The notes beneath the pieces were generated by a model. The model saw only the letters and a list, made by a program, of their open reading frames with translations, was not told where the DNA came from and did no database searches. A stretch of 64,000 bases of DNA from Tepidiforma sp. (GTDB taxonomy: Bacteria > Chloroflexota > Dehalococcoidia > Tepidiformales > Tepidiformaceae), in contig NZ_BPIG01000002.1 of assembly GCF_026003995.1 (NCBI RefSeq), forward strand, positions 248,001 through 312,000, given 5' to 3'. Positions within the stretch are counted from its first letter, which is position 1, and each line of letters begins with the position of its first letter. Shown here piece by piece: positions 38,147 to 46,152 of this stretch. The translations under genes were made by a program, and so were the position numbers.

Positions 38147-38677
38147 TCAGTCGGACGCCAGGTTCGGACCCACCGCGCAGCCGACCCACTTGCAGGCCGG
38201 CGGCCGCGCCGGCGTCGGCGGTGCGATGGGCGTCGCCGTCGGGGTCGGCGTCGGTGTCGGCGTCGGCGCCTCCTTCGCGCACGACACCTGCCACGTGTTC
38301 GAGCGCGGCGGCGTCAGCACCTCCACGAAGTGCCCCGCATCGCTGAAGTACCGGTCGGTCGTCCCCGCCGTATAGCTGATGACTGTCGAAAGCTGGTTCG
38401 GCTCGAGCGTCCAGTCCGGGTCCGGCGGCAGCCCGCCGATCTGCGGCTTGAAGACCCGGATCGGCGTCTTCCCCACGTTCTTGAACTGGATCTCGTCGCC
38501 GCGGTTGATCCGGCAGGTGCGGGGGTTGAACCCCTGCTCGTTCACTTCGATCAGGTAGCGGTCGTAGGCCGAGGCCGATTCCGTCCGCGCTCCGAAAAAG
38601 GCCATGCTCAGCCCGCCGGCGAGCGCCGCCGCCAGCGCCAGGGCCGCCATCAGCGGCCGGTAGCGGTGTTCGCGCAT
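38147..38677 (-). CDS. Secreted protein, tandem paralogue A (cupredoxin-like fold possible)
   Basis: 176 residues. Signal peptide (AALALAAALAGGLSMAFF), then one domain with the segment VNEQGFNPRTCRINRGDEIQFKNVG and NTWQVSCAKE, i.e. two cysteines positioned to pair, followed by a Thr/Pro linker (about 12 TP pairs) and a short C-terminal CxxxxC end (CKWVGC). The strand pattern (F-x-P-x-x-C-x-I-x-x-G-D..F-x-N-V-G-K-T) looks like the first half of a cupredoxin, but no copper His is in place. The next gene upstream encodes a relative. Function unknown. Confidence 0.7.
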   Translation of the reverse strand: MREHRYRPLMAALALAAALAGGLSMAFFGARTESASAYDRYLIEVNEQGFNPRTCRINRGDEIQFKNVGKTPIRVFKPQIGGLPPDPDWTLEPNQLSTVISYTAGTTDRYFSDAGHFVEVLTPPRSNTWQVSCAKEAPTPTPTPTPTATPIAPPTPARPPACKWVGCAVGPNLASD

Positions 38678-38772
38678 CGAACCTCCACGGTCCCCCACCC
38701 CGCCACGGGGCATCCCCGAGGGTACCCCAGCCTTCGCGATCCTGTCACCGCGCGGTCAAGAACCGTCGCTCC

Positions 38773-39231
38773 TCAATCCGCCGCCAGCCCCGGCACCCGC
38801 AGGCAGTAGGCTGCCCCGGTGCACGGCGGCGCCGGCGGCCGCTTCGCCGGGTCCGGGCTGCACTCCACCGGCCACGTCGCCGAGAACACCGGCGTTTTCA
38901 CGATGACGTAGTTCGCCGGGTTCTCGAAATCCTCGAACCGGAACGTCCCCGGGAAGCCCATGTACTCCTCGCGCGAGGTCTCGCCCGGCTGCAGCCAGCC
39001 CGAATCGAACGACAGCCCGCCGCCCGGCGTCGGCGAATACCGCACCACCCGCCGCGGCGTGCTCCCCACGTTCTTGAAGCGCAGGTACTCCCGGTTCATC
39101 TGGCAGACCGCCGGGTTGAAGCCGCCCTCCGAGACCTCGATGGTCTGCACCGTGTAGGCCCCGGCGTCGGGCGCCGCGAGGAGCCCCGCCAGCACGGCCA
39201 GCGCCGCGATCGCACCGCCGAATCGTCGCAC
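38773..39231 (-). CDS. Secreted protein, tandem paralogue B
   Basis: 152 residues. Signal peptide (AAIAALAVLAGLLAAPDAGA), then the same domain as the gene downstream: VSEGGFNPAVCQMNREYLRFKNVG, STPRRVVRY, and ATWPVECSPD, with the same cysteine pair and a short Cys-containing C-terminus (CTGAAYC). It lacks the long TP linker of its relative. About 95 bases separate the two genes. No family name can be given. The start at 39231 is a good ATG but has only a weak ribosome site. Probably an old tandem duplication. Confidence 0.7.
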   Translation of the reverse strand: MRRFGGAIAALAVLAGLLAAPDAGAYTVQTIEVSEGGFNPAVCQMNREYLRFKNVGSTPRRVVRYSPTPGGGLSFDSGWLQPGETSREEYMGFPGTFRFEDFENPANYVIVKTPVFSATWPVECSPDPAKRPPAPPCTGAAYCLRVPGLAAD

Positions 39232-39282
39232 GCGCCAAGCCTACCCGTTCCCGGCCGAACGCGCCCGGCCCCGGACACGCAA

Positions 39283-39653
39283 ACAGGCCCCGCACGAAGC
39301 GGGGCCTGCTGGTCGTTCACTCGCCTCCTCAGCCGGCCGCCGGGCGCTGCACCGGCTGGAGGTCGCCGCCGTCTTTCCGGGACTTCCGTATCCGTTGCCG
39401 CTCCTTCACGGAGCGATCCGGGGCGCCTGCATCGCACAGGACTTAAATTCAGCTCCCGGGCACCTGGGGCAACACCGTGGATACGGGCCCGCGGCGGCTG
39501 GCGAACGGCCTGCTCACTGCAGGCCAGCTCTCTGCACGATGAAGACTCCATAGAGGGCGTGCAGCTTGTTCCGCATGTCCGCACCTCCTTTCGAGCCTCT
39601 GCGAGTCGGCGGGGGCCGGGCCTCTTCAGCGCCGGGCGCCTATCGCAAACTCA
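39283..39653 (-). ncRNA. Unrecognised structured small transcript with embedded small ORF
   Basis: A complete unit on the minus strand. Promoter: TTGACA (39687-39682), 16-base spacer, TAGTGT (39665-39660). Then about 75 bases of leader, a 20-codon ORF (39576-39514), and about 230 further bases ending in a terminator hairpin, GGCCCCGC / GCGGGGCC plus TGTTTGCG (39307-39283). Pairing: CCGTATCC and GTTGCC (39486-39468) match GGCAACGGATACGG (39399-39386), closing an inner domain with short hairpins such as CGCTCC/GGAGCG (39415-39399). It does not match tmRNA, SRP RNA, 6S RNA or RNase P signatures that I can recall. A second possible ORF (GTG at 39409 to stop 39329) lies inside. Confidence 0.6.
39514..39576 (-). 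CDS. 20-codon small ORF with strong ribosome site
   Basis: The ATG at 39576 follows AAAGGAGGTG at a spacing of 5 bases, the best ribosome site seen in the window. The 20-residue product begins MRNKLHALYG and ends in QRAGLQ; hydrophobic in the middle (VFIV). The stop codon lies inside a perfect 7-bp hairpin, GGCCTGC / GCAGGCC, so ribosome position could affect folding, as in leader-peptide attenuators. It may equally be a true small protein. No repeated or rare codon that would suggest amino-acid sensing is visible. Confidence 0.55.
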   Translation of the reverse strand: MRNKLHALYGVFIVQRAGLQ

Positions 39654-39659
39654 CCATTA

Positions 39660-39687
39660 ACACTACTCCCGCCGCGAGGCCTGTCAA
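39660..39687 (-). promoter_or_regulatory. Promoter of the small structured transcript
   Basis: Minus strand: perfect -35 TTGACA (39687-39682), 16-base spacer, -10 TAGTGT (39665-39660). It is the only consensus TTGACA paired with a TANNNT box found in the window. Confidence 0.65.

Positions 39688-43592: not shown

Positions 43593-46152
<2,560 letters not shown>

Follow-up and report, generated by a model that had tools for sequence, protein, structure and literature searches.

Positions 39283-39687 of a 64,000-nt stretch of Tepidiforma DNA (the whole of which was analysed and is called the window below) hold no conventional gene, but they carry a full set of transcription signals on the minus strand. 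What does such a locus encode? The initial annotation, made from this single sequence, offered three answers: a leader-peptide/attenuator RNA, a dual-function small RNA, or a small-protein gene. We compared the locus with its counterparts in related genomes, and used the comparison to weigh these answers and others.

Layout of the element

In the source genome (G000, a hot-spring bacterium), the element occupies 39687-39281 of the window on the minus strand. In transcriptional order it consists of a promoter, a 5′ leader, a Shine-Dalgarno (SD) site, a micro-ORF, hairpin P1, helix P2 enclosing P3 and P4, and a terminator. Its parts are as follows; here and below, peptides are written up to the stop codon.

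39682..39687, minus strand: -35 box TTGACA, read from the sequence; TTGAC(A) stands at the equivalent position in most relatives
39660..39665, minus strand: -10 box TAGTGT, with a 16-nt spacer to the -35 box; TAnnnT stands unchanged across 23 family members
39582..39591, minus strand: SD site AAAGGAGGTG, read from the sequence; nearly every member read has an SD ahead of the ORF
39514..39576, minus strand: micro-ORF of 20 codons with an ATG start, MRNKLHALYGVFIVQRAGLQ, core LHALYGVFIVQ; conserved, with synonymous changes
39546..39549, minus strand: SD-like GGAG within the ORF, formed by the Gly codon GGA and the G that opens the codon after it, 8 nt ahead of the GTG in VQ
39507..39525, minus strand: hairpin P1, 7 bp, loop AGTGA containing the stop codon TGA, 6 nt past the VQ codons
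39525-39519/39513-39507, minus strand: arms of P1, perfectly paired
39479..39486, minus strand: P2 5′ strand CCGUAUCC, partner 39393-39386; compensatory changes (GCAUCC/GGAUGC) in relatives
39469..39473, minus strand: 5′ strand of the P2 continuation, GUUGC, partner 39398-39394
39426..39440, minus strand: hairpin P3 (CCUGU/GCAGG), paired in 77% of family cells
39399..39415, minus strand: hairpin P4 (CGCUCC/GGAGCG), paired in 97% of cells; U-A to C-G changes in 9 members
39386..39398, minus strand: P2 3′ strands GCAAC and GGAUACGG, paired with the P2 5′ strands
39278..39308, minus strand: terminator hairpin CAGGCCCCGC-loop-GCGGGGCCUG with tail UUUGCG, paired in 99.6% of cells (23 members)
39308-39299/39293-39284, minus strand: arms of the terminator stem

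Checked against the sequence, the coordinates first assigned to these signals were correct to a base or two. The TTGACA/TAGTGT promoter, the SD and ATG of the 20-codon ORF (39576-39514), the perfect 7-bp hairpin with its embedded stop codon and the long-range pairing had all been proposed from the one sequence. All of them are present, and the -10 box and the long-range helix are further borne out by the invariance and the compensatory changes listed above. The proposed terminator held up as a conserved hairpin, but its supposedly T-rich tail contains no T-run. A pattern scan of the locus detected neither promoter nor terminator, yet both are conserved in relatives; the terminator was missed because a tail of UUUGCG does not count as a run of T. 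The comparison supports a promoter and a terminator of the element's own. The element's strand folds with a z-score of -4.1, a value that none of 100 shuffles equalled, and the element is kept in nearly all family genomes (see below), more than chance would give; a small, structured transcript whose short ORF is genuine is supported.

Codon-level selection on the micro-ORF

Coding potential was assessed in 78 members (73 distinct). Mean entropies across the core were 0.75, 0.57 and 1.45 at codon positions 1, 2 and 3, so that third positions are the most variable (eleven random columns reach 1.45 with P=6e-5), and frame 0 alone kept its residues beyond what random placement of the observed differences would give (mean z 2.77, versus -0.07 and -0.47); because the members are related, these statistics serve as a guide and not as exact probabilities. 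Synonymous substitution in the 20-codon frame, which the initial annotation had named as a check on its proposal, is found in relatives. The start codon, the SD and the stop are retained, and in two- and three-copy loci each copy is open. The occurrence of two or three tandem micro-ORFs at some loci suggests that translation of the ORF itself is selected. Codon-level selection on the micro-ORF is strongly supported by this comparison, and we strongly infer that the ORF is translated.

The product is 13-21 amino acids long across the family, and the single-ORF variants have 16 or 20 codons. Its constant part is a C-terminal core, GV[WLF][QI]V[DQ], and the N-terminus is variable in both length and sequence. 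The core Gly is encoded by GGA or GGG (GGR) in 72 of 73 cases, with GGA making up only 4% of the Gly codons in genes of the window; the preference for GGR places a GGRG sequence eight nt before the conserved Val codon. Searches of Pfam with the micro-peptides returned no match.

Two further candidate products were rejected. The second ORF reported at 39409-39329, starting from a GTG(A) overlap with another short frame, exists as letters but is not conserved: its GTG is the P4 loop, the same-genus genome G004 has a 1-nt deletion, and other genera do not have it. A frameshift product was rejected because the -1 frame, though open here, closes early in relatives and contains no recognisable slippery site.

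A hairpin at a fixed distance from the core

P1 is paired in 97% of cells, with compensatory changes. A stem was found in 67 members, and in 55 of these it begins 6-7 nt past the core. The stop codon, meanwhile, lies one codon past the core in 48 members and five codons past it, in the P1 loop, in 22. Since the spacing is fixed while the stop moves, it is the distance from core to hairpin that is conserved, and not the position of the stop. Most first ORFs of two-ORF and three-ORF loci have no P1 behind them. An additional hairpin inside the ORF (CUGCAC/GUGCAG) was considered and found to be unsupported, with just 68% of cells paired.

Covariation in the downstream RNA

Covarying pairs in relatives, also named at the outset as a check, were readily apparent. 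In a class-level model comprising P1-P2-P3-P4-terminator (21 members), 33 pairs are changed on both sides, with 109 such cells, and none of 500 shuffles, nor any slid version, was as good. At the level of the family, pairing reaches 97-100% of cells in P1, P4 and the terminator but just 56-59% in P2 and its continuation, a low figure that is partly due to poor alignment in that region. P2-P4 are absent from some members, including G017, a minimal member made up of ORF, P1 and terminator only, and f21 genus g38, and are therefore not essential everywhere. Across the phylum, P2-P4 are less well conserved than the ORF core and P1.

Distribution across the Chloroflexota

A DNA match over most of the element's length was obtained in 4 of 5 other genomes of the genus, the fifth being 72% complete; Tepidiforma flava is among the same-genus genomes with the same element. 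Matches in other genera are partial, and the ORF is their best-preserved part. With model R1, a covariance model of the SD, ORF and P1, the element was found in 36 of 38 family genomes at E<1e-3; E-values here and below are rough, as they came from short calibrations. This count, like those that follow, is a lower bound, since genomes were sampled and many are incomplete. The two family genomes with no R1 match are small (1.4 and 1.9 Mb).

At E<=0.01, model R2 matched 103 of the 393 genomes of the class. We read 36 class loci outside the family: about 30 carry a micro-ORF of the same kind, five are chance matches and one is doubtful. The class micro-ORFs are mostly close to MRLHxxYGVWQVDS, with a strong SD before them and usually a hairpin directly after, for example GCCCTGC/GCAGGGC. 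R2 matches without a micro-ORF (L220, L224, L227, L228, L236) were excluded from the count. Model R3, a sequence model of all types, matched 54 of 400 phylum genomes. Outside the class, a micro-ORF was recognised in 28 of the 35 loci read (e.g. MVRIFFGVWQVDR, MRLHAKKPRAFLGVWQVD and MYPMKKPHKVYGVWQVDF), a few of them by eye and not by script, so that member counts are made partly by reading; the other seven loci, which have no micro-ORF, were left uncounted.

As a control, 198 Actinomycetota genomes yielded six weak matches, the best at 4.9e-4 and none with such a micro-ORF, and seven other genomes gave nothing convincing. When a wide IUPAC pattern was applied to one genome per GTDB species, the short ORF was found in Chloroflexota only. 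Pattern matches elsewhere lay within long coding frames, and a 28-codon frame in Psychromonas was judged to be chance. These searches give good support to a phylum-wide Chloroflexota RNA family that includes nearly all Tepidiformaceae.

Genomic context

The genes beside the element differ between genera. In about 10 of 18 family loci, and in about half of loci overall, the downstream gene is read from the other strand, often in convergent orientation. Because the neighbours are unrelated and often convergent, the element appears to be a transcription unit of its own and not the leader of a fixed gene. A leader peptide would be expected to control a downstream gene on the same transcript, and here the downstream genes are unrelated. 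In genus g13, a short form lies close upstream of rpiB on the same strand, and in f21 genus g38 (L202, L206, L208) the short form (ORF, P1, terminator) lies closely upstream of a same-strand Sir2-like gene. With a same-strand gene close behind, the element may have a cis role at the g13 and g38 loci.

Comparison with known RNAs

Rfam models of riboswitches, leaders and sRNAs gave no match at or above the gathering score at the element or its relatives, in support of the earlier claim that the locus belongs to no known RNA class. Matches to BjrC68, sraL, RsmY and others all fell under the gathering score and were treated as chance. tmRNA (RF00023) did not match at the locus, and the genome's own tmRNA is at G000:C1:520139-520498; 6S RNA (RF00013) was found neither in the genome at E<=1 nor at the locus. 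Titles and abstracts on Tepidiforma, on Chloroflexi structured RNAs with short ORFs and on Chloroflexi arrest peptides, an incomplete cover of the literature, contained no description of the element.

Several known systems share parts of its design. SgrS/SgrT, AzuCR and RNAIII are dual-function small RNAs with the same general layout. Another is VcdRP of Vibrio (PMC8672173); like the element, it combines a structured RNA with a short translated ORF in a stand-alone transcript that has its promoter and terminator. Relative to all four, the peptide of the element is shorter and its constant part is C-terminal, its hairpin stands at a fixed spacing from the ORF end, and the family is phylum-wide. 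The downstream-peptide motif of cyanobacteria (RF01704) likewise combines a structured RNA and a short conserved ORF with synonymous changes in one transcript (PMC2864571); there the RNA is 5′ of the ORF, whereas in the element it is 3′, and the element has no Rfam match. tmRNA also has a short ORF inside a structured RNA, but the element has an SD, a start codon and a terminator in place of the tRNA-like end.

Residues of the nascent chain near the end of the ORF are conserved in the element, as is expected of arrest peptides. TnaC (PMC8429421, PMC3902921), SecM and CliM (PMC13183943) are alike in this respect, for each is short, as an ORF or as a segment of one, and conserves residues of the nascent chain near its end; in leader peptides an RNA hairpin also adjoins the ORF. 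In contrast to these three, the element has no regulated gene behind it in most loci; it has no sequence match to them, and its pause is a predicted one. The letters KWFN, common to TnaC and one second-ORF peptide (L031), were set aside as a single case. The element resembles a dual-function RNA and, should it prove to pause the ribosome, an arrest peptide as well; it does not have the controlled downstream gene that defines a leader peptide.

A model for the element, and its alternatives

On the evidence above, the element is one copy of a hitherto undescribed and well-supported family of stand-alone small RNAs of the dual-function kind, each with a micro-ORF of about 13-21 codons that is very probably translated. 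A programmed pause of the ribosome at the end of the micro-ORF seems its likeliest purpose, although we give this view somewhat less than an even chance, and a released active peptide ranks next. The pause would occur when the ribosomal P site contains the conserved Val that precedes D/Q. In this position, the conserved nascent chain would adjoin the peptidyl-transferase centre, the SD-like GGRG would lie 8 nt upstream, and the base of P1 would lie 12-13 nt downstream, at the mRNA entry. In other organisms, conserved nascent chains (as in arrest peptides such as TnaC, PMC8429421), SD-like sites and hairpins located where the mRNA enters are all known to slow the ribosome; as a counterpoint, the GGR codon preference has other possible causes. 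The proposal is further weakened by the first ORFs of two-ORF and three-ORF loci that mostly stand without P1, by the W(F/H)xPI ending of second ORFs in two-ORF loci, by the members that do without P2-P4, by the limited pairing of P2 and by the possible cis role in g13 and g38. A ribosome paused here would cover the 5′ arm of P1, and our guess is that the state of translation would then decide how the P2-P4 RNA folds, how stable it is or whether it is released, and that this RNA acts in trans. Rather doubtful, in our estimate, is the idea of a stand-alone, phylum-wide RNA module that holds its ribosome, in which the micro-peptide parks its own ribosome at the hairpin with no gene behind, and the parked complex, or the RNA fold that it allows, is active in trans.

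If a small-protein gene were present instead, a released peptide of 13-21 residues would be active and bind a partner via its C-terminal GVWQVD, and the RNA would merely stabilise the message. The strong SD and promoter, the codon-level selection, the two and three tandem ORF copies and the minimal G017 type of member, reduced to ORF, P1 and terminator, are all in keeping with such a gene. However, a free peptide leaves unexplained the 6-7 nt spacing between core and P1, the preference for GGR codons and the strong covariation in the long 3′ part, and the peptides have no Pfam match; we regard it as a real but lesser possibility. The 33 covarying pairs of the class-level alignment would be at home in an RNA that is mainly regulatory, works through base pairing or bound proteins, and has a micro-ORF that tunes its stability or folding only, and a promoter, a terminator and changing neighbours are typical of trans-acting RNAs. 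Such a role is unlikely, given that the ORF core and P1 outlast P2-P4 across the phylum and that some members do without P2-P4.

The order of micro-ORF, hairpin and terminator is leader-like, and in g13 (rpiB) and f21 genus g38 (Sir2-like) the next gene is on the same strand, as for a leader-peptide attenuator acting in cis on the gene downstream. Nonetheless, downstream genes are unrelated among loci and about half are on the opposite strand, and P1 varies where the terminator stem hardly does, which argues against mutually exclusive pairing. We consider attenuation quite improbable. Among the three answers first offered, the leader/attenuator is not supported in general, and the translated or dual-function small RNA, or small-protein gene, is. 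A type I toxin system, in which a short peptide is the toxin, would share the small peptide, the structured message and the tandem copies. From their sequences only, however, the peptides are judged to be partly hydrophobic (about nine hydrophobic residues), with a mostly basic start and no membrane-length helix, and near-universal presence in the family is more like that of a core gene; in our view a toxin is the least probable of these readings, and very improbable.

The element is invisible to standard annotation, its ORF being too short and Rfam having no model for it. Its clean sequence definition (peptide core, spacing and hairpin) makes the proposed ribosome pausing directly testable. 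It may represent an arrest-peptide-like module with no fixed target gene behind it; the arrest-peptide modules known to us all sit before a fixed target gene.

Multi-ORF loci and neighbouring features

A paralogous locus in the source genome (G000:C1:722339-722542; L002, L063) has two ORFs, MKRNTHRLHALYGVWVVQR and MKHRIHAWLRRWHRPM, and is flanked on one side by the end of an htpX-like gene and on the other by a gene starting MGLRTPQQYIDSLKD; in genus g8, too, that gene is preceded by a two-ORF locus. The second ORFs of two-ORF loci end in W(F/H)xPI and not in GV[WLF][QI]V[DQ]. At L232 (G021:C27, 526-790), three micro-ORFs are arranged in tandem in units of about 107 nt, encoding MYQPLHVLYRVWEVDR, MYRRLHVIYRVWEVDS and MFRRLHVIYRVWEVDS.

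In two genomes, G011 (L111) and G018 (L114), a second transcript lies about 300-900 nt downstream of the element. It has TTGACA, very strong SD sites (AAAGGAGGTGRTG), a hairpin and a terminator, and carries short Arg-rich ORFs (MTRIQRPFRRLRSWSRRFTRRFRTPKQG, MRTLHRPDRPAAGVPGTSPVQRPTAR). In the window, tandem secreted paralogues are found downstream of the element (38773-39231 and 38147-38713, minus strand), as they are in genus g8; the first has a weak match to Cupredoxin_1 (E 0.0025), below the cut-off. Elsewhere in the window, a c-di-AMP riboswitch (ydaO/yuaA leader, RF00379) at 888-1025 on the plus strand scores 86.4 bits, well over its gathering score. The grpE-dnaK region (43626-46152, plus strand) contains overlapping frames at 43626-44498, 44473-44805, 44609-45349, 45279-45803 and 45787-46152, which look like frameshifts in dnaK and are likely to be assembly errors.
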